From a virus: DNA of 35,188 nt. A model generated the notes under the pieces. The model saw nothing but the letters and a program-made list of their open reading frames with translations. It searched no databases and was not told the origin of the DNA. Of the stretch, positions 2,334-18,903 are shown piece by piece (position 1 is the stretch's first letter; every line of letters starts with the position of its first letter). Made by a program: the position numbers and the translations under genes. The stretch lies in the IMG/VR virus record IMGVR_UViG_3300037504_000875, positions 1 to 35,188 of that record; one strand, given 5' to 3'.

Positions 2334-3638
2334 TTAGGACATATTCGGGTCAGCAGTAGAGCTGAGGACCACGAAGGCTTTCTCTTGCTCAGGTGTTCCG
2401 CCTACTCGTGCTGAAGCCCTGAACGCTGTCTGGTTGTCTTCAAAGAGGACGTGCCTTGACATCTCAACAGAGACAGTCTTCCTTTCCCCTATGAAATAAT
2501 GTTTCCAGTCGCCCAATACCACGTCGCCTGTGCTACCCAAAGCAGAGGTTTTATAGTCTGACATCACGACCGGAAGGCCCAACATATAACCAGCTACGCC
2601 TTCGCCAAAGTTATTATAGCCCTGACCAAGTTCCATAACCGGCCTGCCCTGATCATCCTTCTCTTTTCTCAGCGTATTGAAGACTTGTTTCTTCATAAAC
2701 CATACTGCGCCAGCATCAAACATCGGAGGAAGTTGAGACTGCATATTCAAACAATCCATATAGCTAACTGTTCCAGATGAGACCCTATTAACAGTAGTAA
2801 TTCCTGGAGCATTCAAGACACCCATTGGCCGCGTGGCGCCCATGCCACGTAGAAAGATTCTATCGGTATAATGCCAATAAGCGCCTTGGAATAGCTGCAC
2901 AAGAAGGTTACCAATATTTATGGCTGAGTCTTGCAGCAAAATATCAGTAACGGGCGTGAAGGCTGAGATCTCATGACATTCAAGTGTCAGCATTCCAAAC
3001 TCAGCCTTTGTGCTAGGTTTGGTGCGCCCCTCTTCAGTCCATCTCATCCTTACGCTTCCAAAGAAATCTTCGTTATCTTCGGTAAGATCTTGGTCCAGTT
3101 TAGGCCATTGGATCTTCTGTGTGGTCATGGGCCAAACTTGCGCCCTCGGCCAAACAATTGTTCCCGGAGGCGCAAACTGCAACATGGCATAACGAACATC
3201 TTCAGGTACAAATAGCCCCGCTGAGGCGTCATCCTGAGTGTTCATAACCGTGTCCCAATCAACGCTTTTGGCTACCGCGTGAGCTGTCTTTTTGTAGGTC
3301 TCAGCCATCTTGGTGAAAAATTCTTTAGACTCTTCGCCAAGCTCCTCAAACATTCCAGAGTTACGATAATAGCCCTTTCCGGTAACTGACCACTGGTTAG
3401 ATGTGTTTACTACAGAACCACCAGGAAGGCGGTACTGGTTAGGACCGACTTGAGAGAGTTTCCCATCGTCAACTACACCGGCTTCCTTTGTATGGATATG
3501 TGCTGGTATAGCTTTTTCAAACTCATCAAGTCTGGTATTTATCTTATCAAGAGGCTCCTGGAGCTTCTTCTCTATCGTCTCGCCCAGGAACTTCTGAAAC
3601 TCCTGCTTTTTGGCGTCGCTTAAGTTTGCCGTTGACAT
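2334..3638 (-). CDS. HK97-fold major capsid protein
   Basis: 434 residues, ATG with AAGGAGTG upstream. Residues 1-45 are a charged, coiled-coil-like segment (delta-domain type, acting as an internal scaffold). A linker to about 130 follows, then the HK97 core. Recognisable parts are GLFVPEDVRYAML at 141-153 at the start of the core, a FGSVRMRWTEEG E-loop region, TPVTDILLQDSAINIG, the RIFLRGMGATRPMGVLN segment typical of the A-domain approach, and a C-terminal strand with VVLGDWKHYFIGERK and FRASARVGG. It assembles the procapsid shell with the portal and is presumably trimmed by the nearby S78 protease, probably somewhere before residue 141. The QDDASAGLFVP segment is repeated almost exactly in the 911-aa protein upstream. 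Confidence 0.95.
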   Translation of the reverse strand: MSTANLSDAKKQEFQKFLGETIEKKLQEPLDKINTRLDEFEKAIPAHIHTKEAGVVDDGKLSQVGPNQYRLPGGSVVNTSNQWSVTGKGYYRNSGMFEELGEESKEFFTKMAETYKKTAHAVAKSVDWDTVMNTQDDASAGLFVPEDVRYAMLQFAPPGTIVWPRAQVWPMTTQKIQWPKLDQDLTEDNEDFFGSVRMRWTEEGRTKPSTKAEFGMLTLECHEISAFTPVTDILLQDSAINIGNLLVQLFQGAYWHYTDRIFLRGMGATRPMGVLNAPGITTVNRVSSGTVSYMDCLNMQSQLPPMFDAGAVWFMKKQVFNTLRKEKDDQGRPVMELGQGYNNFGEGVAGYMLGLPVVMSDYKTSALGSTGDVVLGDWKHYFIGERKTVSVEMSRHVLFEDNQTAFRASARVGGTPEQEKAFVVLSSTADPNMS

Positions 3639-3687: not shown

Positions 3688-5877
3688 TTAACTCTTAAAG
3701 CTGCTAATGCGATCTACAGTTGGCTGTAAGAAGGCATCAACTTTTGTAGTCAACATCTCGGCTATCTCTTCTTTAGAAATTCCGTAGATGTCGTAACTAC
3801 CATCATCTTTGTTAATGCTTTTTTCTTCTATCCAACTGAGCACATCATCATCCGCAAAGTAATCAAGGGCTTGTTCGATTGTAGACTCAACGACTTCCTT
3901 AGCCGCTTTAGTTTCTATGTTGGATTTACTAGCCTGCTTTTTTACCCACCTTGAAACATCTTCGTAGTCCCAAGTATTTTGGTCAAAAGAATAGCTAATC
4001 ATCTTCTGACAATCTATACAAAGTTCCCCTTCTACACCTGTGTATTCTTTCACCTTTATGTGGTGAACATTATGACCATCGTGGTCTTCCCTATCTACTA
4101 AAGCAAAATGCTTCTGTATATTCTCTTCCTCTGGGATCTCTTCTGATTCCTCTACTTCGGGTTCTGGTTCTTCTTCCTGAGCTATAGAATCTTTAAGTGG
4201 ACAATTCTCATTTTCACACGCAGATATTTCACCTGCTGTTACATCCTTGTCACACTCTATACAATAGAATGACTCCTCTTCGTCCTCATCCTCTTCAGGT
4301 TCTACATTCTCATCTTCCTCTACTGGCTCTTCTACCTCTGGAACCTCTTCTGGTCCCTCTGCTTCTGGTTCTACTTCATCGTCACCTAAGCCTTCGTCCT
4401 CCGCCTCCTCACTGTAACCTTCCTCTGGTTCCTCAGCTTCATCCTGTATTTCAGGTGTTTCTGTTTCCTCGCCCTCATTATCTTCCTCCTCTATAGCGGC
4501 CCTATACTCATCCAAAACTGCTGGCAACTCTGCCCTTATCACGTCCCGCACTATGTTACCTATCTCTACTTTCATTGTAGACATATCCATCTGCGGAGGT
4601 GGTGGTGGTTGAACTTCCGCATCCATTGGTTCTGGGCCTGGAGGGACTTCACCTTCCGATTGCGCAGCAGCTTGTTCTGCTTCCTCTGGAGGAACAAGTG
4701 AATCCAAACTGGTTTCACTCTCTGGCTCTGGGAACTTCCCGTCAACAGCAGGAGGGGCCTGGGGTTCAGTAATAGGCGGCTGCCCTTGCGCCTCAGTAGT
4801 AGCCTGTTGATTTTCCTCTGTAGGAGGCGGCTCTGCTGGAGGCTGTTCGGTCGCGGGCGCGGCCTGCTCTTCGGGAGTAGGCGAAGCGCCTGGGCTTGCC
4901 TGTCCTGGCGGAGGGGCTTGAACTTGCTGGCTGTCAGTAGGAGCAGTCGGCTGAGTGGCCGCCGCTGTCTCGGGACCTTGGGTCGGCTGCGTTTGGTCTG
5001 GAGCCTGCTCTGGAGGAGTGGGAGTGTTAGTCTGCCATATGTTATCTGGGTTTTCTCCCTTCGAGGCGTCTACCGGGATTCCATCGTCTGCCGTGGTCAT
5101 AGAACTAATTCTATTAATTCTAGAAGTCAGTTGTGCTTCTAAAAGCTTCTGTTCTACACCTGGATGGCTCCCTGACCTTGCTGCAACATTATGAACCCAT
5201 AACGTTTTCAACATCTTTTTAAGAGAGTCTTCTGTAACAGATATCTCAAAAGTAGCTGACTGATCTCCTGTCCTCTTCCTTTGCACTTGCCCTTCTAAAG
5301 CTTCTGTAGCGATAGCCACACCCTGAATAATAGACTGAATGGCCATGTTCATTTTACCGGCCATCTCCAGTTTTCTTTCAGAGTTTTGGTTCTCCTGCTG
5401 ATACTCATTAACAGCGTTAATGTATTCGTAGCCAGCTTTCTTAGCAGCTTCGGAACCTTGTTGATACCAAAGAGTAGCAGCGGGCCAATACATTACTGGA
5501 GCTGAATTGTTTTGATTATTAGGAGTTTGTACTACATTGCCTTGAGGAGCTTGGGGAGATGTTGGGGTGGTTGTTGTGTTAACTGGCATTCCAAAAGCAT
5601 CTTTTAGGATCATTCCTTTTGTCATTAGGAATTGAGTTATGCGTTTAGCTGCCTTTACACTCTGTAAACCTTCCTCCACAACACTCTTAAATTTAATTTC
5701 AAACCTGTCTGAGGAGACACCCTCTGAGATGAAACCTTTAGATACTAGTGAACTAAATACATCCCCAGGGTTAGGCGATTGACCATCACTCAAATAATTA
5801 CTTATTTCTTGAGTGAGGGACTTTATACGAGCACTATTCGGAGCTTGTTTGGCTTTCTGTCCCTTCTTTTTGGCCAT
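3688..5877 (-). CDS. 729-aa acidic Pro/Gln-rich zinc-ribbon protein (head region)
   Basis: The ATG at 5877 has GAGGAGG upstream and overlaps the end of the 911-aa gene by 44 nt. The layout is a basic N-terminus (AKKKGQKAKQ), a helical region to about residue 220, a very Pro/Gln/Ala-rich linker (about 270-420), then a long Glu/Asp-rich stretch (about 450-600). A zinc ribbon near residues 537-560 (CIECDK...CENENC) and a second CIDC pair near 618 follow. The C-terminus is helical. The zinc ribbon resembles the one at the end of the 911-aa protein (C-x2-C-x-K-x-V-x-A-x2-I-x2-C-x-N-x2-CP). Composition and position directly before the capsid gene fit an internal scaffold or head-core protein, but no known scaffold family is recognised. 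A role in packaging or ejection cannot be excluded. Confidence 0.7.
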   Translation of the reverse strand: MAKKKGQKAKQAPNSARIKSLTQEISNYLSDGQSPNPGDVFSSLVSKGFISEGVSSDRFEIKFKSVVEEGLQSVKAAKRITQFLMTKGMILKDAFGMPVNTTTTPTSPQAPQGNVVQTPNNQNNSAPVMYWPAATLWYQQGSEAAKKAGYEYINAVNEYQQENQNSERKLEMAGKMNMAIQSIIQGVAIATEALEGQVQRKRTGDQSATFEISVTEDSLKKMLKTLWVHNVAARSGSHPGVEQKLLEAQLTSRINRISSMTTADDGIPVDASKGENPDNIWQTNTPTPPEQAPDQTQPTQGPETAAATQPTAPTDSQQVQAPPPGQASPGASPTPEEQAAPATEQPPAEPPPTEENQQATTEAQGQPPITEPQAPPAVDGKFPEPESETSLDSLVPPEEAEQAAAQSEGEVPPGPEPMDAEVQPPPPPQMDMSTMKVEIGNIVRDVIRAELPAVLDEYRAAIEEEDNEGEETETPEIQDEAEEPEEGYSEEAEDEGLGDDEVEPEAEGPEEVPEVEEPVEEDENVEPEEDEDEEESFYCIECDKDVTAGEISACENENCPLKDSIAQEEEPEPEVEESEEIPEEENIQKHFALVDREDHDGHNVHHIKVKEYTGVEGELCIDCQKMISYSFDQNTWDYEDVSRWVKKQASKSNIETKAAKEVVESTIEQALDYFADDDVLSWIEEKSINKDDGSYDIYGISKEEIAEMLTTKVDAFLQPTVDRISSFKS

Positions 5878-8569
5878 CGCTCGTTTCCTCCTCTTTGTCC
5901 TTCTTCTCTTCTATATCTGTATCCCCTATAACTGCATCCAACCATGTAAAAGGACACTCGGGGTTATCACATCGCGCTATATCTTCAGCGCTTACTGGTT
6001 TATTACACAAATTACAAAATTTAGCATCTTCTACAGGAACAAATAAACCAGCGCTTCTGTCATCTTGGCTGCTCATATAGTCGGCGGCCCCTTTCATGTC
6101 AACCGGATTTATAGATTTTTCTGTAGTTTTTTCGGAGTTTGACTCTTCGGATGACATATTATTATATTTGTCTGGCTTAACACTTTTCTTGAGGTTTATA
6201 TAAATATCAGTAATTATATCATTAATAGCCTCATAATTAGTATGATTTGGGACACCACCTTCTATCATAATTTTACAAGATTGTGATATATCAGTGATCT
6301 CTTCAATTATTTGGATAGCCGCCATGTCAGCTATTTCATCAATAGAAACATACTCATCATCCGGCTCTATATTAGGAGCCTTAGTTATAATTTCTCCATT
6401 AAACTCCTTGCCAGATGTAACTCTTTTTATTGGTTCGTTATCCAACACCACCCTCTCAAAACTACCTTCACCGTGCAACTTATTAAAGTGATCCTGAATT
6501 TCCCTTACAAAGTCACCAGTAGCTTCGGGAGTTTTTGTTCTATTATAAACAACCATCATGTTACCAGGGGTGTTCTCTATGTCATAAAGATCATCTACTA
6601 CTTTGGTAAATCTTTCGGCTACTGTTCCTGGTTTAGTAGAATGTATTTTTTGAGAGCCCTCTATATGTCTCCTTATATCGTGCTCAACTAGTCTATTTAA
6701 AAAGTCTTTTCTATTAGTTTCTTTGCCCATCTGGGCAAGCTCTCGTCTTGTCTTGGCCTCTTCTCTTTTGGTTTCAGCGTTTATTTTCTTAATTTCATCG
6801 GCCATGGTTGACGTTTTCGGAGCTGGAGTCTTCCTATTCCCTATTTTATCAACCTCTTGTTGTTGCCTAGTTCTGCTTTTTTCTGCTGCCTGTTTCGCCC
6901 CAAGATAGCTTGCGATATCTTGTTGGAAATAATACATTCCACCAGTTCCGGCAGAAATAGATATTCCAGCCAAAACCCTCCTAGAAAGGGGGCCTATAAC
7001 TGCATCGGCCATAAATTCATTATATCCACGATAATCGTCTTTATTTACAATGTCAGCTCTATTAGCGAACTCGTCGCCATAGCGAGTTACAACCCGATCT
7101 GGCAATATAGATTCTGTATTTTTTATTTTTCGGGGTATTCCGCGAGAATCTAATAGCCTCTTCTGATCTAACCATAGCTTAAGATCGTCTTCACCAAGAG
7201 TTTTCCCCTTATTTCTAACAAAATTGACTTCAAGCGTTTTGGGGTCAACTTTTATAGGCTTAACGGAACCTTCAGGGCCGCCAGTCTTTAATATTCTATA
7301 TAGTTTGTTGTCCCCTGTTTTTGCTTCTCTCTTTAGAGCCTCTTCTACCATAGATTTATATCTAAGAGACCCGTTCTCATACGTGATTGGTTTACCTGAA
7401 TAGGCGTCCAGCTGACCAAACTTGGGAATAAAACTCTCTCTGGATGCGCTATCAGACAAATCTGCAACATAATTTTTGTTAAGCCTAAACCTATCAACAT
7501 TATAACCAGTCCATTTGGGGCCAGCCCTCATGCCATACTTGGCCCCTTCTTCTGGAGTCATACCTTTGGCCTTCATTAATGTTTTAGTTATCCACTTGTT
7601 AATTGCTCCAGCTTTCTCCATTTCCGTCCAGCTTTCTTTCCCTGTCACTTTAGCAAACTGTATAAACTCCGGTGGAACAGCTTCAGTTGGATCTGGAGCC
7701 CCAAATTCCTTTAATTTCCTAACCTGGAGTCTCCCAAAGCCATCAACATCCATGTGTTTCAGATCTTTAAGATTATCCATATTTTTGAGGCCACCCTGGA
7801 GCGCGAACTTTGGTCTACCAACAGTAAGAGCTGCAACACCCAAAATTGTAGCAATACCACCGGCAAGGAGAACGAGCTTCGCTCTATCCCTTTCATCTTT
7901 CTCAGAATATTCATTCCTAAAGGTGCCCCACGCATCTTTCAATATTTGTTGTTTAGCCACTTCTCTATCAAAAGCCGCTTTGGTTTCTGTTATACTAGCT
8001 CTGGCTTCTCCAGATTCACCTGGAACATTTTTTACAGAAACATAGCCCCCCCTAGAGAGTTTAGCTTTGCCGTATTTAGACCGATAGGCCGCTTCTCTCA
8101 TCTTCTCTTCTTTTTTGAGATATTCTTCGGGGTTATCTATATACTCAGCCCAATCTGGTTTACCCAGTTCCTTAGCATCTTCCTTGACCATCTTTTCTAT
8201 TTCTTTCTCAGAAGCGTCAGGATAAGCTTTTTTGTATTGGGACATTCTTTTAGGAACAGCAATAGAAGCATATTTTGAAGTTCTCCCAGAAAAACTTCTC
8301 TTACCACCATGCTTTCCTTTCGAGGTTTTTGGAGTAGAGCCTGCCTTCCCATCCTCTACAAATTTTCCATCTGGACCGCGGGGGTGTTCACTCTCCTCAA
8401 ATTCCTCTTTGGACATAGCCTTAGTTTTAAATAAAAAGGAGAGACCTTTTATCTCTTTAGCGCCTTTATTTTTTTTGCGGAACTTCCCATCTGAATCTCT
8501 GGGATGCTCATGCTCCTCAAATTCCTCTTTGGACATTTTTTTGGTCTCTATCAGCTCTGCCAATCCCAT
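5834..8569 (-). CDS. 911-aa head-operon protein with tandem HPR..DGKF repeats and a capsid-like zinc-ribbon tail
   Basis: Residues 9-30 and 49-70 are two copies of the same 22-residue unit, with core SKEEFEE.EHPR..DGKF. The HPR..DGKF signature is one I recall from phage head-morphogenesis (MuF-associated) proteins. A hydrophobic segment lies near residue 235 (LVLLAGGIATILGVAALTV) and a weaker one near 540 (RRVLAGISISAG). Residues 835-845 read QDDRSAGLFVP, almost identical to the major capsid protein, followed by a four-Cys zinc ribbon (FCNLC...CDNPEC) and an acidic tail. It lies between the protease and the 729-aa gene and starts next to the protease stop. It is probably virion or procapsid associated. 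The large middle part is unrecognised and could be an injected effector. Confidence 0.7.
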   Translation of the reverse strand: MGLAELIETKKMSKEEFEEHEHPRDSDGKFRKKNKGAKEIKGLSFLFKTKAMSKEEFEESEHPRGPDGKFVEDGKAGSTPKTSKGKHGGKRSFSGRTSKYASIAVPKRMSQYKKAYPDASEKEIEKMVKEDAKELGKPDWAEYIDNPEEYLKKEEKMREAAYRSKYGKAKLSRGGYVSVKNVPGESGEARASITETKAAFDREVAKQQILKDAWGTFRNEYSEKDERDRAKLVLLAGGIATILGVAALTVGRPKFALQGGLKNMDNLKDLKHMDVDGFGRLQVRKLKEFGAPDPTEAVPPEFIQFAKVTGKESWTEMEKAGAINKWITKTLMKAKGMTPEEGAKYGMRAGPKWTGYNVDRFRLNKNYVADLSDSASRESFIPKFGQLDAYSGKPITYENGSLRYKSMVEEALKREAKTGDNKLYRILKTGGPEGSVKPIKVDPKTLEVNFVRNKGKTLGEDDLKLWLDQKRLLDSRGIPRKIKNTESILPDRVVTRYGDEFANRADIVNKDDYRGYNEFMADAVIGPLSRRVLAGISISAGTGGMYYFQQDIASYLGAKQAAEKSRTRQQQEVDKIGNRKTPAPKTSTMADEIKKINAETKREEAKTRRELAQMGKETNRKDFLNRLVEHDIRRHIEGSQKIHSTKPGTVAERFTKVVDDLYDIENTPGNMMVVYNRTKTPEATGDFVREIQDHFNKLHGEGSFERVVLDNEPIKRVTSGKEFNGEIITKAPNIEPDDEYVSIDEIADMAAIQIIEEITDISQSCKIMIEGGVPNHTNYEAINDIITDIYINLKKSVKPDKYNNMSSEESNSEKTTEKSINPVDMKGAADYMSSQDDRSAGLFVPVEDAKFCNLCNKPVSAEDIARCDNPECPFTWLDAVIGDTDIEEKKDKEEETSDGQKEGTESQTSSE

Positions 8570-8570
8570 A

Positions 8571-9329
8571 TTATTTCCCTATAAGCGCAGATAAGCCTTT
8601 TGTTTCTTTGGTTTCTATGGAAGTATCCAAAAGCCACTTTAATACAGGCCTATTTAAATCAGCCCAATAATCAGCCATCTCGTCAAAAATATCTGGATCG
8701 TCGCTCCAATAGTTAGGATCATAGCCCTTAATTATAAGCTGGGCCATCTCATTACCCTTTTCCGCAAAAGAAAGAAGCGCCCGCCGATTAGAAGGAATAG
8801 CCAGCAAAGAAACTTCAACAAGCTCAACTCTACGATATATCTTCTTACACCTACGCCCATTTGATGTCTTCATCGACATAGAAGGTATTCTGTCTGGCGC
8901 CGGGTTATCTTCCCACTCAAGGGGGATAAAGCCTGTAGAGAAACCTCTTAGGCACCCTTCAGAGAGAAGCGTTAAAACTTCTTCCCCCTGTGGAGTTTTA
9001 GAAACATAAAACTCTCCCCACAAGCCCTCTGGAGGCTTGGGTTCAACATTAAGACACTTACCCACCGGGAGCGACTTATGATGATGGTGAAGGATCAAGA
9101 TAGGATTTGTCATATAGACATCAAGGTCCCTTTGAAACGCTTCCACTGGAACGACTTCGCCATCTCTATCCATATCTGGCGTGGAGATGAGGCCCTTTAT
9201 AGTGCGCTTTTCAACATCAACATCCAAAACTGGATATTGAACTTTTTCAGCCCTCTCGGGTTCATCTTCTATAACATCAAGAGCCTTAAACACAAGATCA
9301 TCTGATATATCATAGGCTAGATTATCCAT
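8571..9329 (-). CDS. HK97-type prohead maturation protease (peptidase S78)
   Basis: 252 residues. The fold markers are in order: KRTIKGLISTPDMDRDGEVV at 41-60 (typical opening strand of S78/U35 proteases), ILHHHHKSLPVGK at 79-91 with the catalytic His, and CLRGFSTGFIPLEWE at 126-140 with the nucleophile Ser131. RRVELVEVSLLAIPSNRRAL then supplies the last conserved strand. The enzyme cleaves the scaffold part of the capsid protein, and itself, inside the procapsid. Its C-terminus carries SIETKETKGL, similar to ETK/EEK motifs scattered through neighbouring proteins, which may be a processing signal. It lies between the 501-aa and 911-aa genes with overlapping or adjacent stops and starts. Confidence 0.93.
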   Translation of the reverse strand: MDNLAYDISDDLVFKALDVIEDEPERAEKVQYPVLDVDVEKRTIKGLISTPDMDRDGEVVPVEAFQRDLDVYMTNPILILHHHHKSLPVGKCLNVEPKPPEGLWGEFYVSKTPQGEEVLTLLSEGCLRGFSTGFIPLEWEDNPAPDRIPSMSMKTSNGRRCKKIYRRVELVEVSLLAIPSNRRALLSFAEKGNEMAQLIIKGYDPNYWSDDPDIFDEMADYWADLNRPVLKWLLDTSIETKETKGLSALIGK

Positions 9330-9331: not shown

Positions 9332-10837
9332 CTACTTCCTCAGCTTATCATAAGCATATTTACCGCTAACAAGACCCGCTGCACCCGCCAAACCAACTGC
9401 ACCGCGCTTGCCCCACTTTGCCAACCTAGATGGCTTCAGGGCAGAAGATTTCGGGGAAGCATACCGAGAAGCGTCTAACAGTTTTCTTTCTCTAATCTTA
9501 GCGCTTCTTTCTATGGTTTCATCGTCTAGGGCTTCCACTAAGGGTTGGCTAGTATTCTTCCACTTAGGTGGATTAGAGCGCCTTTGAGCACGCCTAATAT
9601 CCTTACTGGCCCTCCCCGAACCCTCAATATCTCCAGATTCAGTAATCTTTATCTCGTTCTGGTCGGGTTTAAAGCGCCTAGCATAAGTTTCCCTAGCTGT
9701 TTCCTTAACTTCAATACTAAACAAACCCTTGCCAACAAAAGCTTCATAGGGAGAATTTTTAGTGTGAACACCACCAAACCCCCTATCAACAAATTTATAA
9801 TCAGTTACATCAATGTCAGTCTTCGGATCAGCAGATATCCTCCGATTAAAAGCTCTTTCCATAGCTTTTTCATCTCCACGCCTCGCTGCATTCAGGCCTT
9901 CTGCTGTATCCTGAAACGTATCCATCGTGTCTTCCTTAACTTTTTTAAAACTATCAGCGCTTTCTTTTTTTAGTTTATTAAGATGTCGAGCGCCATCGTC
10001 CATATATTTAGCAGCCCCGCCTATACCTGCACCAGTAAGACCACCCATCGCTCCCAAAATCAAAGCCGCCCTGCGCTTTTGATCTTTGCTTCCAGGTAGC
10101 ACATACCCAGTTCCGGCGCCCGCTCCAGCGCCAATGGCTGCCCCGCCGAGAGTGTGGGCGGCCACGCCCCTCAAAGATTTCTCTACTATCATAGAATCAT
10201 CAAGCTCTTTAGCCACGGGCGTCTTTTTACGATTCGACAAGGCTCCACCGGCTCCGGCTCCTACAAGGCCTGCACCACCAATAGTAGTGCCAACCACATT
10301 CTTCTCACCTACCCGTTCCACGGCTTTTCTAGCCTTTTTGCTTCTTCTAAATGCAGCCCCGAGACCGCGGAACCCAGCCGTCCCCGCTGCGCCACCAACG
10401 CCTGCACCGATTAAGGCTCCTCTCTTGGCTCCTTCCATTCTCTCACCTTTTTTAGCCCTAGCAGCACCAATAGCCGCACCACCAGCTCCACCTATACCAG
10501 CAGCAGGCATTCCCGCTCTGGCTGCGTCAAACATCAAATCAGATGCAGCTGCGCCTACTCTTTCCTTCCAGTTTTTCTCTTCCATACTTTCTAAGAAAGA
10601 GGGGCCTTTGGATATGAGCATATCGTCATCTAGTTCAAAAGATTTATTCTCTATAATAGGATCTTCATAAAGAGACTCAGCATATTCAGAGTAATCCTGT
10701 CTAGGTGTGAGGTCTTCAAAGCCAACAGTTAGGTCTTCCTCTACTCCCTTGCGCACTAGATCATTTTTCTCCACTTCTTTTGTAGATCCATCAAAAGTTC
10801 CCATTGTTTTAAATGAACATTTTCCGCGTCCAGACAT
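9332..10837 (-). CDS. 501-aa glycine-zipper repeat protein, member of the three-gene modular family
   Basis: The N-terminus SGRGKCSFKTMGTF matches the starts of the 858-aa and 646-aa proteins (RGkAsFkT). It contains LDDDMLISKGPSFLESMEEK near residue 68 and KELDDSMIVEKS near 210, which are copies of the family module. Between and after these are long Gly/Ala-rich glycine-zipper stretches with a basic turn, for example GAKRGALIGAGVGGAAG near 140 and a similar block near 230-275. The middle (about 280-480) is charged and the tail ends GAVGLAGAAGLVSGKYAYDKL. These zippers could insert into membranes or pack as helices. Encoded between portal and protease, it is probably an internal virion or ejection protein, but no known family is recognised. 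Confidence 0.7.
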   Translation of the reverse strand: MSGRGKCSFKTMGTFDGSTKEVEKNDLVRKGVEEDLTVGFEDLTPRQDYSEYAESLYEDPIIENKSFELDDDMLISKGPSFLESMEEKNWKERVGAAASDLMFDAARAGMPAAGIGGAGGAAIGAARAKKGERMEGAKRGALIGAGVGGAAGTAGFRGLGAAFRRSKKARKAVERVGEKNVVGTTIGGAGLVGAGAGGALSNRKKTPVAKELDDSMIVEKSLRGVAAHTLGGAAIGAGAGAGTGYVLPGSKDQKRRAALILGAMGGLTGAGIGGAAKYMDDGARHLNKLKKESADSFKKVKEDTMDTFQDTAEGLNAARRGDEKAMERAFNRRISADPKTDIDVTDYKFVDRGFGGVHTKNSPYEAFVGKGLFSIEVKETARETYARRFKPDQNEIKITESGDIEGSGRASKDIRRAQRRSNPPKWKNTSQPLVEALDDETIERSAKIRERKLLDASRYASPKSSALKPSRLAKWGKRGAVGLAGAAGLVSGKYAYDKLRK

Positions 10838-10847
10838 TTTAACACTC

Positions 10848-13340
10848 CTAGAATTCTGGTTTTACTCCACATCTACAATTTGGGTGGAGAGTAGCTGTCT
10901 TATAATAAACCTGATCATTCGCAAAATCTTTTATAACCCTGCCATGTGCCCTATCGCAGTTTTTAGCAGGGTTAGGATCTTCACATACACGATCATCCAG
11001 AGAAGTCCAGTGGAGAATTCTTTTTACCACCGGTTTCCCTGCCTGTTTATTTATAGTTTCAAATGAGGTCATGGCGCCTTCATTCATTGCGCCAGCTATT
11101 TCAGTTCTTGCTATCATTGTGGCCCTGGTAGAACCTATATGGGAAAACCTCTTCTTAATAATTTCCACCACCTCTTCCAAGTCCATTCCTGTTGAAATAG
11201 CCTTCTTAATAATTTTAGTAAGTTCAGTTTGTATAGATTTAGCCCTGAGATCCGATGATAAGTCAAGAAATTTTCCTGCCGCCTGTTCCGCCGCACGCTG
11301 GGGATCTGAGATGGTTTGAGCATCATCTCCTGTTCCTTTTTGAACCATATAAACACCAACGCCGACCCCAACTTCAGCGGCTTTGTTTATATATGGTTCC
11401 GCCTGATCTTCATATAATCCCTTTAACCAATCAACTGTAAGGTCTTCAGCAGGATCTTTGGTCACATAGTCAGAGAATCCTTTTTCGACAATATCAACAG
11501 CAGCATCTCCTACATCTACTAAAAACCCTTTTGCTATATCCGTATAATCTGTTTCTATCTTGTTCCAAAGATCATAAGATTCTTCGTAGGCTTTAAACAC
11601 TATTTTATCTATTGGATCATCAAAATAATTATCAGCTATATAATCGTGCAAACCCCTAGTTATTAGTTTAGTAAGAGATTGGTCGTATTTTCCTGAATCC
11701 AACATAGATTGGAGAGACCCAGAAGGATCTGCTGCAATAAGCTTGGCGAGCCCTTGTTGATTCCCTCTGGCTGCATTAAGAAGGGAGCTAAGGCCAGGTT
11801 TAGAAGACCTTGCCGCTTCTGCTACCAACTGTTGCAATGCTGGTAACGGTGGCCTTCCACCCATCTGCCCCATTGCACCTTGGGCTGCTGGCATCTGCTG
11901 AGGGGCCACGCCCCCACCTTGCTGTGCCATGGCATTGGGATCTTGAGGCATGGCGCCCTGCTGCCCGGCCCCCATTCCCATTGACCCCATAATCTTTTCG
12001 CTCCATAACTCATCAGCCTCTTTGTCCTGACCTGGAACCGGCTCTCCATTCATCCAAGCAATGTCAGCAAGTGGAGTATCCCAAGGTTTCAAGCCCTTCC
12101 TCTTCCTTATCTCGTTAGGAGACACCACAGCCATATTGACTTCGGCTTGATCCTTAGCAAGTTCCCACTCATCATCTTTGGGCAGAGCAGACTCATGTTT
12201 AAATTCCAAACCATCATTCTCACCAAAATCAGGGAGAAGCTGGAGATTGATCGTGTCTTCAATAAGCCTTAATCTGGGATCTATGCAGTTTTTAACGAAT
12301 GTGGTTTCCGCTGTCACTGAAGATGATTTATTAAAAGACTCATAAAGACCAAGCATGGCTTCAGGGACATTGTAAGCGGCCAAAATATTATCTTTGATCC
12401 ACTCCGACAGCCCCAAAAACTCAAAGTCTCTAGCAGACATTCCAAGCTGTTCTATCCTTACATTTTTAGACAGAATGGCTGGCTTGTGTTGTTTACCTGG
12501 GCCTCTATGCTTCGCTGACCAACTAGCATGAATAGCATTAGCCTCCTGCTCTTGAATAGGATCTTCTGCAACTATAACAAAATCCGGTCTAGCGTTATTT
12601 TGGAAAAAGTCTTTCTCATATACCTGCATGAGCATATCTAAGTCAGTAACGTGACAACACGCCTGCATGGGCGTAAAGGGCATCATCACATTTGTAGGAT
12701 GTGGGTAGTTAAAATAAACCACATCATCCCAAGAATATTCCTGTCGTGTCTGTTGGTGCTGTGTAGAGGAAAATACAAATTTCTTTATAAGTTCATCAGT
12801 ATTATTGCCCTTTTCTATAGTAACCAACTCGTGAGGATTCAGGGGGTAAAGCTCCTTCACTTTACCTACAGCGTTCCTTATTTTAAGCCACACAGCAAAG
12901 CCACAAAGATCTAAGTGCATATGAGTTATAGCCCTTAATCTTCTGCCTGTCATATATTTATTCGGCCGCTTTAAAAGCTTAATGGCAGGATGTTGTAATA
13001 TTCTGTCAAACTCTTCGTCGTTAGGCTGGCCAACCTCTCTATACAAATAATAGGGAACAGTAGAAGCTTTACCCGCAATAAGATTCACACACGGGAAAAC
13101 CCACGATCTATATTTATTGATTGCCTGTTGCGCTGTTACTGTGGGATTTAATGTTCCGGGGTTCCCGTTAGATACATAGGTAAGAGTATTAGACTTTAAC
13201 TGTTCCCACCCACCTTTCTGGACTATACCATTACCGTTCCGAGGCGCGGGTAAAAAGTTATTAGCGCTGTGTCTAATAACTCCACTGATCCCCTTTGAGA
13301 TACTGCGAACAGATCCTAGAAAAGTGGGTTCCTTCTGCAT
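10848..13340 (-). CDS. Portal protein fused to a MuF-like minor head domain
   Basis: 830 residues. Residues 1 to about 440 are a phage portal of the HK97/PF04860 type: YRSWVFPCVNLIAGKAS near 73-89, YLYREVGQPN, LLKRPNKYMTGRRLR, VVYFNYPHPTN, ILAAYNVPEAMLG and the closing EIRKRKGLKPWD. A Gln/Met/Gly/Pro linker (about 450-500) follows, then helices. The end (about 715-830) is a Mu F-like domain with GSTRATMIARTEIAGAMNEGA and a terminal TLHPNCRCGVKPEF. The portal forms the dodecameric DNA gate at one capsid vertex; MuF domains lie inside the head and may act during assembly or ejection. Such fusions occur in some phages, although the two genes are usually separate. Confidence 0.92.
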   Translation of the reverse strand: MQKEPTFLGSVRSISKGISGVIRHSANNFLPAPRNGNGIVQKGGWEQLKSNTLTYVSNGNPGTLNPTVTAQQAINKYRSWVFPCVNLIAGKASTVPYYLYREVGQPNDEEFDRILQHPAIKLLKRPNKYMTGRRLRAITHMHLDLCGFAVWLKIRNAVGKVKELYPLNPHELVTIEKGNNTDELIKKFVFSSTQHQQTRQEYSWDDVVYFNYPHPTNVMMPFTPMQACCHVTDLDMLMQVYEKDFFQNNARPDFVIVAEDPIQEQEANAIHASWSAKHRGPGKQHKPAILSKNVRIEQLGMSARDFEFLGLSEWIKDNILAAYNVPEAMLGLYESFNKSSSVTAETTFVKNCIDPRLRLIEDTINLQLLPDFGENDGLEFKHESALPKDDEWELAKDQAEVNMAVVSPNEIRKRKGLKPWDTPLADIAWMNGEPVPGQDKEADELWSEKIMGSMGMGAGQQGAMPQDPNAMAQQGGGVAPQQMPAAQGAMGQMGGRPPLPALQQLVAEAARSSKPGLSSLLNAARGNQQGLAKLIAADPSGSLQSMLDSGKYDQSLTKLITRGLHDYIADNYFDDPIDKIVFKAYEESYDLWNKIETDYTDIAKGFLVDVGDAAVDIVEKGFSDYVTKDPAEDLTVDWLKGLYEDQAEPYINKAAEVGVGVGVYMVQKGTGDDAQTISDPQRAAEQAAGKFLDLSSDLRAKSIQTELTKIIKKAISTGMDLEEVVEIIKKRFSHIGSTRATMIARTEIAGAMNEGAMTSFETINKQAGKPVVKRILHWTSLDDRVCEDPNPAKNCDRAHGRVIKDFANDQVYYKTATLHPNCRCGVKPEF

Positions 13341-13343
13341 AGC

Positions 13344-13880
13344 CTATTCGCTCCATTTTCTCTTGGCCACGTCCTCAAGACTAGAAATCTCTTGTTCCTG
13401 ATTAGCAGAAATGGTTTTGAGAAGCTCTTCTTTTCTTTGTTCTTTTGTGACAATTTCATTCAGAAAATCATCTTGCCTCTGAGAACTCTTGTTTACCTTA
13501 GTTAAGAAGCTTTCAAACTTATTGCGGAAGGCGCTCCCAACAACAAGGGATTTGTTACTTGGGGCAACCACCTCAACCTCAGCAGAATAGCTCTCTGGCC
13601 GTTGCGGTTCTGAATTGGCTTCTTTAGGTTCTTCCTTCGCTTCCTGTTTCGTTTTAACAATCTCTTCGGCCATTAATTGTCCCTCCTCGTTAAATGTCTG
13701 AACGACTATGTGATCTATATCTTCTTTATTTAGAAGATGGCCCCCTATTCGGTCTGATATCGTCATTCCGTAGGGGGGTTTCTTAAGGAGCCTCTTCTTA
13801 AGATCATCCGCTGATTCTAACTGATCAGTTTTGATCTTTAGAGGCTCCTTTTTCAGTCTATATACAGTAAGGTGAAGCAA
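13344..13880 (-). CDS. Unrecognised 178-aa protein upstream of the portal
   Basis: The TTG at 13880 is the likely start, with ACAGGA upstream that overlaps the previous stop; no in-frame ATG fits the N-terminus. Residues 1-75 look like a small globular domain (HLTVYRLKKEPLKIK, then IGGHLLNKEDIDHIVVQTF). The remainder is charged and helical with a Lys/Glu-rich linker and ends SSLEDVAKRKWSE. There is no membrane segment. It is 3 nt before the portal gene and after the repeat proteins, so it probably belongs to head or connector assembly. No family is recognised. Confidence 0.65.
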   Translation of the reverse strand: MLHLTVYRLKKEPLKIKTDQLESADDLKKRLLKKPPYGMTISDRIGGHLLNKEDIDHIVVQTFNEEGQLMAEEIVKTKQEAKEEPKEANSEPQRPESYSAEVEVVAPSNKSLVVGSAFRNKFESFLTKVNKSSQRQDDFLNEIVTKEQRKEELLKTISANQEQEISSLEDVAKRKWSE

Positions 13881-13883
13881 TAT

Positions 13884-14312
13884 TCATCCTGTTATATCCT
13901 CTAGCCCCGGCAGTCTGTAAGGAGATCTAACCCTCTTCGTTACTTGCTTGCCTTTCCTCGGCTGTTTGCCTGCATTGGCTATGACCCTCTTGGCATATTT
14001 AGGAACACCGGTCATGTTTCTTGCAGAGCTAAGATTGGCCTTGGTCTCTATTAGACCAGAGAAATTTTTCTCTTCTATCTGGAAACCCTTTTGGACTATG
14101 CCTTCGTTGTAGGCTTCATAGCCTTTCTTTTTAGGTTTTGGAGTTGTAACACCAGCTACAGTTCCCCCAATTGGGCCTCCGCCAATAAGGCCGCCTATAA
14201 CTCCCCTTTTAGCGCCTCTCTTTTTGGCGCCTTCTGGGGCAGTAAGATAACCCATAGCAGCTCCAGTTCCGGCGCCAAGACCAGCTAACGTTCCAAGTTC
14301 TATCAGAGTCAT
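13884..14312 (-). CDS. 142-aa repeat-family ORF, probably the C-terminal part of the 646-aa protein through an A9 frameshift
   Basis: The first ATG is at 14312, but the same frame is open up to 14396 and encodes more of the family module (LVVKEVSDDINVGDFQIEKK) before that ATG, with no ATG, GTG or TTG there. The frame begins exactly in the A9 run where the upstream protein ends, so a -1 slip joins the two. The visible protein has a glycine-zipper pair with a basic turn (GAKKRGAKRGVIGGLIGGG) near residue 30 and one full YEAYNEGIVQKGFQIEEK module near 65. A basic tail ending YRLPGLEDITG follows. Independent translation from 14312 is possible, but its ribosome site is weak. Confidence 0.7.
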   Translation of the reverse strand: MTLIELGTLAGLGAGTGAAMGYLTAPEGAKKRGAKRGVIGGLIGGGPIGGTVAGVTTPKPKKKGYEAYNEGIVQKGFQIEEKNFSGLIETKANLSSARNMTGVPKYAKRVIANAGKQPRKGKQVTKRVRSPYRLPGLEDITG

Positions 14313-15515
14313 CTTCTTTTCTATCTGGAAGTCTCCAACATTAATATCGTCAGAGACTTCCTTAACTACCAGTCGACCCTCATCTACCGTTTTTTTTTAT
14401 CAGTAAGCTTGTCGTAGCCATACTTACCCGCTGCGCCGCCTGCTACCAGAGCAGCGCCTATTCCACCACGCTTGCCCCACCTCTTAGCGCCTCGCTTAAA
14501 AGCATCTGATCCAAGATAGGCTCTGGTCCTAGACCCTCTATCCTTAACGCCCTCTTTAAAGCCACCTAGTTTTTCCTTGGCTTTATCCCAGCGTTCTCCC
14601 TTCTCTTCTATCTGGAAACCCTTTTGGACTATGCCTTCGTTGTAGGCTTCATAGCCTTTTCCGAAGTATTTATCATAACCAAGTTTGCCACCTGCACCCG
14701 CTCCAGCGCCAGAAGCTAGAAGCAACGCCGCCGCAGTTTTAGGGTTTTCCTTAGCAAGATCTTCCAAGGCTTTGGCTTTTTGGCCAGACCAATCTTTGGC
14801 TCTGCCAGCCCCTCTTTTCATGGCTCCACCGGCTCCAGAAACTTTGCCCCAAGTAAAACGAGCAGCGTCACCAATTTTGCCCTTCTCTTCTATCTGGAAA
14901 CCCTTTTGGACTATGCCTTCGTTGTAGGCTTCATATCCTTTCTTTTTGCGCTTGCTATAAGCATACCCTCCGCCACCTATTGCGCCTGCGCCTAACAGGC
15001 CAGCAGCTATAAGCTTGTTCCTAGTGGTCCCAAACCTGCGAAGCCTTCCTAGTTGATCCTTAGCACCCCTCGCAACCCTCTTAGCCTTGCCCTCTTTGGG
15101 ATCATAAGCAGAGGTTGGGCCCTCGGTAATAAAATCTGGAGCCCCTTCAACCCTCTTCATCTTCTCTTCTATCTGGAAGCCTTTTGTGGCTATGCCAGAA
15201 TTAAACTCATCAAAACCCTTTCTGCTTTTGGCATATCCATATCCTGCGCCACCTGCAAGTCCTGCGCCGCCTGCGATCCCGGCAGCGGTTAGGGGGTTTT
15301 CGTCAATCTTGTCCCTGAGTTTCCCAGCGCCTTCTGTCACTTTATTCTTGGCTTTTCTGGCTTCGATCCCAAGAGCACGTTTGGCTGAACCAAACTTGCC
15401 CATATTCATGCCCTCTTTGCCAAGCCTGTAATTGGCCCTAAGCGCTCTTGCAAACTTCTCTTCTATCTGAAACCCCTTGGCAGCAAAGCCACTGTTGTAA
15501 GCATTCCAGCCCTTA
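14060..15515. repeat. Five DNA copies of the FQIEEK module
   Basis: Near-identical segments of about 55-60 bp occur at roughly 14067-14126, 14600-14659 and 14883-14940. Diverged copies follow at about 15163-15222 and 15450-15512. All encode the G-Y-E-A-Y-N..KGFQIEEK module on the minus strand. The three best copies differ by only one or two bases, which indicates recent duplication or gene conversion. Confidence 0.85.
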
Positions 15516-16324
15516 CCCAAAGCATCGGTAGTCTCATCGGATGACATCTCATCTTCTATAGGATCTTCGTCTTCCGCTTCGGCTTCTTCGGGGTTCTTAT
15601 CACCACTAACCGCATCCGCCTTAGCCTCCGCTTCTCCTGTCTGAGGAGAGGGCTCGTTCATCCCTTGAGTCTCTTTATCATCATCAGATTCCTCTACATA
15701 GTCACCAGAATCTTCATCTTCCGTGTAACCATCTTCAAGCCCCATATCTTCTGTATCACCCTTATAGACCAAAGATGAGAGCCCCTTACCTACGGTAAGA
15801 TCATCAACCCCACCAATAGAAAGGTCATTATCAAAACTCTTCATTGTATAGGGAGACGCTTCACGAGCCATAAGATCAAAGTCTTCCATTGCAGACTTTT
15901 GTACCATGCCAATGGTATCGTGAACATTGTGAACATTCATGCCAGAAGACACCTGAACAACATGACCCTTGGCTACCATGTTATTAAAGTCTTCGTATCC
16001 CAGGCCCTTCTTCACTCTGTCTCCGGGTCCGGGAAGGTGCTGAACGTCTGATACATAACTATCGGCTATGTCGGTTTCTGCGCCCGCTTCTACCTCTTTA
16101 AGCTCTTCGCTCATAGTAGTAGTCGGATCACCGGGCTTGTTATCAGACTTCTTAATATTCGCCGCTTTGGGAGCGCCAGCTTGAGCATCATCAAGCTCGG
16201 CGGTCTCAGTAACATCCATGCCGGTATCGAGAGGAAGAGTTTCCTCTTCGTGTCCGTCACCTTTAGCAACAAAATCTCCCATGAAACCCTTCATGGTTGT
16301 AAAACTTGCGCTTCCTCTGTTCAT
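14384..16324 (-). CDS. 646-aa modular repeat protein with four FQIEEK modules
   Basis: The ATG at 16324 has AAGGAG 6 nt upstream and overlaps the upstream stop region. The N-terminus NRGSASFTTMKGFM matches the two paralogues. The first 280 residues are acidic. Then come four copies of a module with the pattern G[WFY].[AE][YF]N.G[FI]..KGFQIEEK, each followed by a basic linker and a glycine-zipper hydrophobic stretch such as AAGIAGGAGLAGGAGYGYA. The last residues DKKKR sit on an A9 run just before the stop; a -1 slip would add about 168 residues containing one more full module and reach about 813 in total, close to the 858-aa paralogue. It lies upstream of the portal and is probably an internal or ejected virion protein; no family is recognised. 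Confidence 0.72.
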   Translation of the reverse strand: MNRGSASFTTMKGFMGDFVAKGDGHEEETLPLDTGMDVTETAELDDAQAGAPKAANIKKSDNKPGDPTTTMSEELKEVEAGAETDIADSYVSDVQHLPGPGDRVKKGLGYEDFNNMVAKGHVVQVSSGMNVHNVHDTIGMVQKSAMEDFDLMAREASPYTMKSFDNDLSIGGVDDLTVGKGLSSLVYKGDTEDMGLEDGYTEDEDSGDYVEESDDDKETQGMNEPSPQTGEAEAKADAVSGDKNPEEAEAEDEDPIEDEMSSDETTDALGKGWNAYNSGFAAKGFQIEEKFARALRANYRLGKEGMNMGKFGSAKRALGIEARKAKNKVTEGAGKLRDKIDENPLTAAGIAGGAGLAGGAGYGYAKSRKGFDEFNSGIATKGFQIEEKMKRVEGAPDFITEGPTSAYDPKEGKAKRVARGAKDQLGRLRRFGTTRNKLIAAGLLGAGAIGGGGYAYSKRKKKGYEAYNEGIVQKGFQIEEKGKIGDAARFTWGKVSGAGGAMKRGAGRAKDWSGQKAKALEDLAKENPKTAAALLLASGAGAGAGGKLGYDKYFGKGYEAYNEGIVQKGFQIEEKGERWDKAKEKLGGFKEGVKDRGSRTRAYLGSDAFKRGAKRWGKRGGIGAALVAGGAAGKYGYDKLTDKKKR

Positions 16325-16326
16325 CA

Positions 16327-18903
16327 CTATCTCCTTTTAAAGGACTTTGTTATAAAGTTCTTATCTAATCCTCTTGTATAATATTGCGGTCTCGGCGCTT
16401 GAGAAGCTGACGACCCAGTTCCAGCATATATTAACCCTCCGCCACCTATTGCGCCTGCGCCTATTAACCGCTTTGTCCACTTAGACATTGGTTGCCTTGC
16501 GCCAGCAACCTGAGCTTTTTCAGCTTTATCTAACTCATCTAATATAGATTGCGCCTCTCTTGTTTGACCTTTTGCTTGGCTTATTTGATTCTGGGCCGCC
16601 ATCCTTTTCTCTTGATTTATTATTGCCTGGCTCTTGTTAGCATCCGCCACCGGTTGATTGGGAATGCCGGCTCCAGCGGGATTCTCCTTTGTTGCTGTTG
16701 CACCAGGCCTCTTTCCAGTGGGTTTGGGAATACTAGGGCCTCCTCTCATTTTTCCCTTTGGAAGAGAGGTTACAATGGTCCTTGCTTTACCAGTGGCTTG
16801 TTTTGCTCCACTGAGAATACTTCTATACTTTGTTTCAACGGTATCTAAAAAAGACCCACCCTTAAAGGTCACCATGTCATCAGCAAAGCCCTTAGTCTCA
16901 AGAAGGGCCTGCGCCTCATCAAACTTACCTTCCGCTACCAGAGCATCAATGAAAGCCACTTTTTCTTCTGGTGTCATTCTGGCAGCATCCTCAGCCGCAT
17001 CGACATTCCTTATAGATTGCACAAGGAGATTGAAACCTGCGCCCTTCTCTTCCACATCCTCTAAGAAAGATGGGCCTTTGGATATGAACATGTCATCGTC
17101 GAGGCCCTTAAACCCAGTTTTAGACATATCAAATCTGGTCAAAATCCAATCTGCATCATCATCATAAATGTCTCTTAAATCTCTATAGTAATCAGCAGCA
17201 GGATCGTCTGTATATTTAGCCTGATTAATAGCGGTTCTGGCCTTACTTGCCCTTCCAACCTCCCCTCTTCTTGCTGCCTCTATCCCCATATCATCTGCTG
17301 CCTGTTTATACAGATCCAGCCTGCTCTTTAAATTCGGGTCCGGGGCTCCAGGAACGGGGGTTTCTATCTTATGCCTCCTAACAGATCCCTTCCCTGCATT
17401 CTTGATTTTATCCTTATATTTTAAATATTTCCCCATCCTAGAAAAATAGTTTTTCTCTACTATCATAGATTCATCAACTGATTTAGGAATGAGCTGTTTT
17501 TCAGATTCTTCCCTGACCAGCCTCTTAGGAGAAGTAGATGATTTGACACCAGCGCCCGTTGCGGCAATTACCGGAACCATATTTTCTACTGTATCTGCAA
17601 TAGTTCTTTTTGCTAGCCCACCCTGCATTGCCATCTCATATAACTCTGGCCTAGCTGCCCCAATAGCCCCACTTGTAGCTGCGCCCACCGTAGCTCCAGC
17701 AATCGCTCCTCTTACAAAAGAAGCAGCCCTATCTGTATCCGAAGCGGCTGCGGCTGCGGTCCCACCTACCAAACCGCCTGTTATAGCGCCTCTAGCCAAG
17801 CCAGATATGGCGCCAGTAAACCTGCTCTCTATACCTTTTCCTACAACAAATCTAGCTGTCCCCCTGGTCTGTGTGCCAGAAGGGGGGGATGGTTTTGTGA
17901 CCGTAGGAGTGGTCGGTTTGTTTGGTGTTGGCCTTTTTATTGATGGTGGTTTAGGTGGTGTCGGCTTTGCAATATTATTCACTTTATTCTGAGTACGTCT
18001 TTGCTGAGTAGTAATTTTGCGATTTATGTTCATACCTTTATCTTCAACTTGGTCTAAGAAGGGCTCACCCTTAAAGATTACCATATCATCATCTACTGAT
18101 TTTCTAGATGCAGCAACTTCCCTGGAAACTAGTCCGCTGCCCAATAAAGCCGAACCTGCTGCCAGACCACCAGCAGCATATTTAGCTTTACTTAAAGGAA
18201 CGCCAGCCTTGACAAGCTTATCTGCTATCCTAGACCCTAAGTCGAATCCCACAGCGCCAGCCAAGGCGCCTGTGGCTGCTCCTGCGCCAATAATAGATCT
18301 TTTATCTTCCGATCCCGGATGATCCTCACTCGCAAGGGACCCAACACTACCGCCAAGCAGACCCCCTGCCGCAGCAACCTTAGCCAAAGCATCTACAGAG
18401 GCTCCGCCTTTCTCAACCACCATTGATTCATCTAGTTCTTTAACAGACAAATCACCAGCTCTTGGTCTGAGTTCCTTTGGCCTTTTTTGTTGCTCTGGCT
18501 CTTCATATCCAACGATACTATCTTTTACTTTTTCTAATCTGCCAGCTCTAAATTTCCCTCTTATGGCTACACCGGCGAGTGACTCTAAGGGACTCTTTTG
18601 TTCTAGTGTATCTAAAAAAGACTCTCCCTTATTTACAATCAAATCATCATCTAACTCTTTAACAGTTAAATCTTCATAATAATTACGATCTACCACATAA
18701 TCCTCTTCTAGTTCTTTAACCGCAATACCTACTTCAGTTCGATCCGCCAGAACATCCAGAAGGGTCTCATAAGAGCCAGAAGGGTTCATCTCTCTAATAT
18801 CAGGAATATATCTGTTGGAAGCGTCCACAACCGGACTCACATTTGTATCCGGTTCCGTAGAGATAGGTTTTTGCGTTTTGAACTCTGCTTTTCCTCGCGG
18901 CAT
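16327..18903 (-). CDS. 858-aa modular repeat protein with seven or eight DDDM..KG.SFLD..E.K modules
   Basis: ATG with AGGAG upstream (in a hairpin). The N-terminus PRGKAEFKTQ matches the paralogues. Modules lie near residues 62, 81, 153, 267, 474, 598, 666 and 844. The clearest are VKELDDDLIVNKGESFLDTL, KSVDDDMVIFKGEPFLDQVE, KGLDDDMFISKGPSFLEDVE and KGFADDMVTFKGGSFLDTVE. The last, RGLDKNFITKSFKRR, is degenerate at the C-terminus. Between them are glycine-zipper stretches (near 180-265 and 365-460), a Pro/Thr-rich basic linker near 305-350, and charged helical segments. It is the first gene of the head operon. The architecture suggests a bead-on-string precursor or ejection protein, possibly cut at the repeated modules by the prohead protease; this is inference. 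Confidence 0.72.
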   Translation of the reverse strand: MPRGKAEFKTQKPISTEPDTNVSPVVDASNRYIPDIREMNPSGSYETLLDVLADRTEVGIAVKELEEDYVVDRNYYEDLTVKELDDDLIVNKGESFLDTLEQKSPLESLAGVAIRGKFRAGRLEKVKDSIVGYEEPEQQKRPKELRPRAGDLSVKELDESMVVEKGGASVDALAKVAAAGGLLGGSVGSLASEDHPGSEDKRSIIGAGAATGALAGAVGFDLGSRIADKLVKAGVPLSKAKYAAGGLAAGSALLGSGLVSREVAASRKSVDDDMVIFKGEPFLDQVEDKGMNINRKITTQQRRTQNKVNNIAKPTPPKPPSIKRPTPNKPTTPTVTKPSPPSGTQTRGTARFVVGKGIESRFTGAISGLARGAITGGLVGGTAAAAASDTDRAASFVRGAIAGATVGAATSGAIGAARPELYEMAMQGGLAKRTIADTVENMVPVIAATGAGVKSSTSPKRLVREESEKQLIPKSVDESMIVEKNYFSRMGKYLKYKDKIKNAGKGSVRRHKIETPVPGAPDPNLKSRLDLYKQAADDMGIEAARRGEVGRASKARTAINQAKYTDDPAADYYRDLRDIYDDDADWILTRFDMSKTGFKGLDDDMFISKGPSFLEDVEEKGAGFNLLVQSIRNVDAAEDAARMTPEEKVAFIDALVAEGKFDEAQALLETKGFADDMVTFKGGSFLDTVETKYRSILSGAKQATGKARTIVTSLPKGKMRGGPSIPKPTGKRPGATATKENPAGAGIPNQPVADANKSQAIINQEKRMAAQNQISQAKGQTREAQSILDELDKAEKAQVAGARQPMSKWTKRLIGAGAIGGGGLIYAGTGSSASQAPRPQYYTRGLDKNFITKSFKRR

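Follow-up and report, generated by a model that had tools for sequence, protein, structure and literature searches.

Glycine-zipper polyproteins in the head operon of an uncultured HK97-type virus as predicted substrates of its S78 prohead protease

Head Operon and Its Glycine-Zipper Proteins

The virus record IMGVR_UViG_3300037504_000875 (35,188 bases, called here the window) carries a head operon that encodes three large proteins of 858, 647 and 501 amino acids (aa), in which short lysine-ended modules are repeated between glycine-zipper (Gly-zipper) stretches. In this work, we describe these proteins and discuss them as putative substrates of the S78 prohead protease encoded beside them. 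All head-operon genes discussed lie on the minus strand (Table 1), and their order in the direction of transcription is 858-aa, 647-aa, 142-aa, 178-aa, portal-MuF fusion, 501-aa, S78 protease, 911-aa, 729-aa and capsid protein. The coordinates agree with an initial annotation of this DNA, which had placed two long open reading frames (ORFs) upstream of the portal-MuF gene and a third between that gene and the protease.

The same annotation had described at least 14 short modules in the 858-, 646/647- and 501-aa proteins, with Gly-zipper stretches and basic turns between them, and a common N-terminus, and both descriptions hold, the modules numbering about 14. The N-termini read MPRGKAEFKT (858), MNRGSASFTT (647) and MSGRGKCSFKT (501). 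Six clear and two degenerate modules are found in the 858-aa protein, four of the form YN.G...KGFQIEEK and one mixed in the 647-aa protein, and two clear and one degenerate in the 501-aa protein; the 142-aa ORF, absent from the earlier list, has one module inside and another just upstream of its ATG. The core of the module is a hydrophobic residue, any two residues and Lys, followed by Gly, Ala, Ser, Asp or Glu, and it is mostly doubled at a spacing of 7-13 residues. Between the sites lie paired Ala/Gly-rich hydrophobic stretches with a charged turn, often starting right after a site.

When the 647-aa protein, the portal and the capsid protein were used as queries, related loci emerged in five further uncultured viruses: L008 (with its twin L002, and L003), L004 with L006 (67.9 kb), L009 (a contig in a sulfur-cave metagenome-assembled genome labelled Brevinema), L014 with L028, and L015. 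A sixth relative (L012 with L013) is covered at its capsid end alone. In the first three relatives, the portals are 45-53 percent and the capsid proteins 56-63 percent identical to those of the window; Gly-zipper proteins are encoded around the portal in all five. The wording of the module varies by virus (KELDDSLIVEKG in L004, KGFNELDDSIETKG in L008, KELEGPEVVVKG in L014, KGFEDYDNTIATKGFEIEEK in L009), while its core stays constant despite these changes.

The 289-aa protein of L008 matches PF05433 (Glycine zipper 2TM) with 28.2 bits, over the cut-off of 24.2, and the 501-aa protein of the window gives a weak PF13441 match (15.5 bits vs. a cut-off of 28.9). The proteins had been thought to belong to no described family, in agreement with the database searches: at an E value of 0.001, no PHROG or Pfam family matches the window Gly-zipper proteins, and neither the 647-aa protein nor the 761-aa protein of L004 has a match in 50,697 phage records (tblastn). 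The 858-aa protein has no relative in the viral contigs searched, and a portal search of 296 genomes from the phylum of the metagenome-assembled genome holding L009 matched that genome alone.

Enrichment and Conservation of the Lysine Motif

The motif [VILFM][VILFMTAEQS]xK[GASDE] was worded after inspection of the sequences, so its enrichment figures are descriptive: in 13 Gly-zipper proteins it occurs 81 times, compared with 34.1 +/- 5.5 in shuffled sequences, and pairs of motifs 7-13 residues apart occur 19 times, compared with 1.2 expected and a maximum of 4 in 200 shuffles. For other proteins encoded by these viruses, the count is 53, vs. 41.6 in shuffles. In a held-out Gly-zipper protein of 354 aa from L028, five occurrences were found vs. 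1.8 (P=0.033).

Lys residues of the motif are better conserved than other Lys in three of the four alignments, namely the 647 family (0.67 vs. 0.31), the portals (0.66 vs. 0.46) and the cargo polyprotein (0.47 vs. 0.28), the capsid alignment being borderline; as columns were counted once per row, the associated P values, such as 6e-6 in the 647 family, err on the optimistic side.

Three other descriptions of the site were tried and dropped. A 7-residue matrix derived from capsid and portal sites gave 1.70 hits per 1000 aa in Gly-zipper proteins vs. 0.24 in controls (score 5), but missed most modules because P3 and P2 vary. The looser motif [VILFMA]xxK[GASDE] was hardly distinguishable from shuffles. 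A T4-like Glu rule, suggested by I-E-E in FQIEEK, was abandoned since Glu is lacking in many modules and in most capsid junctions, whereas Lys is constant.

The Capsid Junction as a Reference Site

The capsid protein gp5 of HK97 is cut between K103 and S104 (PMC10275583); we checked the numbering of K103 on the sequence record. When the seven capsid proteins of the group are aligned with that of HK97, K103 falls in the column of window K124, which is an invariant Lys of a variable stretch (mean top-residue share 0.58) that lies directly before the conserved N-arm. A module matrix, built solely from modules of Gly-zipper proteins, ranks the K124 junction first in the window capsid protein (6.0; runner-up -8.1), and the corresponding junction first in L008 and second in L009. 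Doubled sites with module-like spacing are present at the capsid junction of L006 (FVTK-GDSVQIVTK-D) and L009 (FICK-EPNLDLVIK-D). Because the module Lys resembles this predicted capsid cut, which is aligned with HK97 Lys103, we read the modules as prohead-protease sites, and we consider this assignment, made from sequence, to be likely.

Sites at Domain Joints and the Cargo Polyprotein

Site-like sequences also stand at domain joints: at the portal N-terminus, in the portal-MuF linker (which the module matrix picks in the portals of L004, L008 and L009), in the tail of the S78 protease (DTSIETK/ETKGLSALIGK; here and below, a slash marks a predicted cut) and before each cargo header. The ETK/EEK-like strings reported earlier are indeed seen in the protease tail (DTSIETKETKGLSALIGK) and at the N-terminus of the 911-aa protein. 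The protease motifs with the catalytic His and Ser, HHHHKSLPVGK and GFSTGF, match NHKTWELPVGK and GMSVGF of HK97 gp4.

In L008, L004 and L015, the protease runs on into a homologue of the 911-aa protein as one gene; the window has a gene for each, with the break between KGLSALIGK, where the protease frame stops, and MGLAELIETKKMSKEEF. Cargo stretches open with a Lys-ending site and then a header, [AE]M[ST]KEEFxExEHPRxxDGKF, and the 911-aa protein contains two headers of the form TK-[KA]MSKEEFEExEHPRxxDGKF (the EHPRxxDGKF headers of the window lie at 8360-8449 and 8480-8569). In the header alignment of six viruses, with an overall identity of 27-33 percent, the Lys before the header, E-H-P-R, G and F are invariant.

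The slot between the protease and the first cargo header varies in content (L014 2392-5439, L015 3499-8070, L004 13381-19896). It holds a polynucleotide-kinase-type HAD phosphatase in L014 (HAD_PNKP, 4e-21) and a weak LigT-like stretch, below cut-off, in L015. A zincin-like HExxH was noticed by eye in the cargo of L004, L009 and L014, and domain searches recognised no effector domain in the 911-aa protein of the window. EHPRxxDGKF also occurs in gp13 of the haloarchaeal virus HHTV-1 (L018), in gp73 of Gordonia phage Sixama (L019) and in Pseudomonas phages; these proteins are encoded in head operons near terminase, portal or MuF genes, and the matches to them, with E values from 0.2 to 4, are weak and short. 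The cargo arrangement agrees with the polyvalent proteins of Iyer et al. (PMC5512222), with a cutter that is likely different.

The N-Terminal Tag

The tag M.RGKxxFxT heads 12 Gly-zipper proteins from six viruses and no other of 244 screened ORFs, a count that describes the proteins rather than testing them independently, as the pattern was written from its own members; two of the 12, from L028, entered the analysis late. A site follows soon after the tag in the 647 family (K22/G) and in L028 (FIVSK/GFGIETK/G), and the first strong site is at residue 63 in the 858-aa and at residue 30 in the 501-aa protein. Internal proteins of T4 and the P1 protein DarB enter heads via short N-terminal sequences (PMC9026906, PMC9024508), with a length of about 10 residues in T4 IPIII (PMC9026906) and between 9 and 30 in DarB (PMC9024508). 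Given these precedents and the site right after the tag in the 647 family, we call RGKxxFxT a probable capsid-import signal.

Proposed Maturation Pathway

We propose that the 858-, 647- and 501-aa proteins are probably precursors that the S78 protease cuts at the modules during head maturation. Cleavage by this protease at the repeats had been one of two options in the initial annotation, and it has gained strong, though indirect, support from the likeness of the module Lys to the capsid cut and from the sites at portal, protease and cargo joints. The other option, ejection proteins that insert in membranes, is compatible with it, because cutting inside the head would release the pieces that are ejected.

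In the proposed pathway, the three proteins, together with the probable 142-aa extension of the 647-aa protein, would act as internal-head polyproteins, which the RGKxxFxT tag would bring into the assembling prohead. The S78 protease would then cut after each module Lys, at the same kind of predicted site as that used to remove the capsid scaffold domain. Doubled sites would excise a spacer of ~7-12 residues, freeing Gly-zipper hairpins of roughly 50-170 residues, and the neighbouring polyprotein would be cut likewise into protease and cargo domains. It is plausible that the hairpins are membrane-active ejection proteins. That the freed hairpins remain in the head, exit with the DNA, insert in the host membrane and aid genome entry is the least certain step, to which we give slightly less than an even chance. 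The complete scheme, a strategy resembling that of eukaryotic viruses with polyproteins, in which tagged precursors are imported before packaging, cut at tandem Lys into hairpins and effectors, and ejected, is put forward a shade more tentatively still.

Several observations weigh against this interpretation. The capsid maturation site that serves as its reference is itself a prediction, and the module matrix places the junction outside the top three in four of the seven capsid proteins (L006, L012, L014, L015). Two of the three Gly-zipper proteins of L004 depart from the tag, one being degenerate (MPREKSTF) and the other having none. Motif enrichment is not significant in a held-out 926-aa protein of L028, nor in the L028 portal, and cargo polyproteins as a whole show none for the broad motif (58 vs. 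51). Moreover, the seven viruses are kin, which makes their sites non-independent evidence, and AlphaFold models of the 911- and 647-aa proteins, with pLDDT (predicted local distance difference test) values of 41.7 and 35.0, are too poor for use.

Alternative Explanations

An unlikely alternative, though the strongest of those considered, is that the polyproteins form a disposable internal scaffold, cut and expelled like gp22, gp67 and gp68 of T4; the modules would still be sites, and nothing would be ejected. The core proteins of T4 are cut to multiple fragments, most of which leave the head (PMC9026906), and many short pieces are found among the fragments predicted here. However, repeated hydrophobic Gly-zipper hairpins, alike in kind over six viruses, are unlike scaffolds, and the hairpin pieces, predicted to span 50-170 residues, are rather big to be removed. 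A scaffold region is, moreover, already present at the N-terminus of the capsid protein itself.

The modules could instead serve for docking, contacting the shell, the protease or one another and staying uncut, as do the cargo-loading peptides of encapsulins. Conserved linear motifs that are short and recur between variable segments suit binding as well as cutting. Cutting, however, accounts better for the match to the capsid junction, for the invariance of its Lys and for the doubled Lys that two capsid proteins have at this point, which leaves docking with a low probability.

Less probable again is a role of the hairpins as tethers that keep the assembling prohead at the host membrane until the protease cuts it free. 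Hairpins and sites are suited to such a job, and T4 proheads leave the membrane around the time of proteolytic maturation (PMC9026906); the common N-terminal tag, in contrast, suggests import into the head, and no gene resembling a membrane initiator turned up, although no search for one was made. Finally, functionless, recombination-driven expansion of low-complexity sequence is very improbable: near-identical copies (KGYEAYNEGIVQKGFQIEEK twice in the 647-aa protein and once in the 142-aa ORF) suggest recent duplication, yet module Lys outconserve other Lys between viruses with an identity of 32-44 percent, and the same kind of site is present in portal and capsid proteins.

Comparison with Known Systems

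Prohead proteases with many substrates are an established feature of T4 and of giant phages (PMC10052503, PMC9026906). In SPN3US and phiKZ, one prohead protease acts on the capsid protein and the portal as well as on internal ejection proteins and its own tail; some propeptides receive several cuts, and the SPN3US enzyme prefers Val or Ala at P4 (PMC10052503, PMC5694885, PMC9026906). These are giant phages with a Glu-ended motif and chiefly propeptide removal, whereas the window, from an HK97-type virus, has Lys-ended doubled sites repeated through the bodies of Gly-zipper proteins, at which cutting is predicted. The T4 proteins IPI-III and Alt share a short N-terminal targeting sequence followed by a protease site cut by gp21; their tag differs, the specificity is L/I-X-E, and they have no arrays of repeated hairpins (PMC9026906).

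HK97 gp4 and gp5 offer an S78-type protease, Lys at P1 and a capsid scaffold domain cut off just before the N-arm (PMC10275583), without such internal polyproteins; the comparison here is limited to the K103/S104 site. The Dar system of P1 also has large internal head proteins, with a demonstrated N-terminal packaging signal in DarB and a DarA thought to be processed, but its capsid protein is cut at E120/S121, and repeated hairpins or sites are not described (PMC9024508). Polyvalent proteins and MuF fusions are multi-domain head-operon cargo for which injection along with the DNA has been suggested, and a metallopeptidase domain is present in some of them (Iyer et al. 2017, PMC5512222; Jamet et al. 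2017, PMC5576092). Their processing was proposed to involve this in-protein domain, whereas here the fused S78 protease is the likely cutter.

Literature searches on prohead protease with glycine zipper, and on head maturation protease with polyprotein, found no paper. The kind of system is known; what is new, as far as searches show, is the repetition of Lys-ended doubled sites within the hairpin polyproteins of an HK97-type virus. If the proposal is true, HK97-type capsid proteases would mature a multi-peptide payload in addition to removing scaffold, and a readable rule (hydrophobic-x-x-Lys, doubled) would predict packed and cut head proteins of uncultured viruses. It would also add a new tag for capsid import, and it would supply candidate membrane peptides for the passage of DNA across the host membrane, a step that is poorly understood.

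Possible Frameshift After the 647-aa Frame

The 647-aa frame closes at an A9 run, beyond which the -1 frame (region 13884-14372) continues with LVVKEVSDDINVGDFQIEKK, a module that precedes the ATG of the 142-aa ORF, followed by the hairpin of this ORF. A 531-aa homologue in L009 also ends at an A-run (A10), and its shifted frame continues with KELADAITAKG and a Gly-zipper. Slippage adding one more hairpin would be a possible explanation for both endings, as would homopolymer errors in two assemblies.

Table 1. Features of the head operon in the window, all on the minus strand; slashes mark predicted cuts.
Feature	Position (-)	Remarks
858-aa Gly-zipper polyprotein	16327..18903	
858 N-terminal tag MPRGKAEFKTQ	18871..18903	
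858 module DLTVK/ELDDDLIVNK/GESFLDTLEQK	18595..18672	
858 module DLSVK/ELDESMVVEK/G	18406..18453	
858 hairpin	18235..18390	residues 172-223
858 module ASRK/SVDDDMVIFK/GEPFLDQVEDK/G	18034..18111	
858 hairpin	17650..17820	residues 362-418
858 module LIPK/SVDESMIVEK/N	17449..17493	
858 module FK/GLDDDMFISK/GPSFLEDVEEK/G	17041..17112	
858 module ETK/GFADDMVTFK/GGSFLDTVETK	16828..16899	
647-aa Gly-zipper polyprotein	14384..16327	646 aa if second start used; relatives in L009, L004, L008, L028
647 tag, then predicted site NRGSASFTTMKGFMGDFVAK/GD	16256..16321	K22-G23 invariant in alignment A5 (647 family)
647 module KGWNAYNSGFAAK/GFQIEEK	15455..15514	
647 module KGFDEFNSGIATK/GFQIEEK	15161..15220	
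647 module KGYEAYNEGIVQK/GFQIEEK	14882..14941	
647 module KGYEAYNEGIVQK/GFQIEEK	14600..14659	
A9 run closing 647-aa frame	14390..14398	-1 frame: LVVKEVSDDINVGDFQIEKK and 142-aa ORF
142-aa ORF, Gly-zipper hairpin and module	13884..14312	probable C-terminal extension of 647-aa protein
142-aa ORF module KGYEAYNEGIVQK/GFQIEEKNFSGLIETK	14040..14126	
Portal-MuF fusion, 830 aa	10848..13340	Pfam PF04860, PF04233
Predicted portal N-terminal site GIVQK/GGWE	13203..13229	relatives LVVLK/GWEE, VVVIK/GWEE, IVVIK/GWEE, LVTGK/GWEE
Predicted portal-MuF linker sites AAVDIVEK/GFSDYVTK/D	11454..11504	
501-aa Gly-zipper polyprotein	9332..10837	
501 module ENK/SFELDDDMLISK/GPSFLESMEEK	10574..10651	
501 hairpin	10361..10516	residues 108-159; weak PF13441
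501 module PVAK/ELDDSMIVEK/S	10175..10219	
501 hairpin	10007..10153	residues 229-277
S78 prohead protease, 252 aa	8571..9329	PF04586, phrog_80
911-aa cargo polyprotein	5834..8569	
729-aa acidic protein	3688..5877	conserved in relatives
Predicted capsid maturation site AHAVAK124/SVDWDTVM	3243..3284	Lys invariant in 7 capsid proteins, aligned with HK97 K103
Major capsid protein, HK97 fold, 434 aa	2334..3638	PF05065

Neighbouring Genes

The large terminase of L002 consists of two ORFs (6084-7271 and 8102-8827), with the nuclease part ahead of the ATPase part. The nuclease part is present in the window (20058-20963), and the L002 ATPase part has no match there (tblastn). In the window, an HNH-type endonuclease gene (19307-20053) separates the nuclease part of the terminase from the first Gly-zipper gene, and similar-looking ORFs occur at about the same place in L004 (4650-5525) and L028 (8543-9445). 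Further upstream in the window (21718-22329 and 23102-23833), there are a dCTP-deaminase-like gene and a lookalike, judged by eye, of ThyX-type thymidylate synthase.

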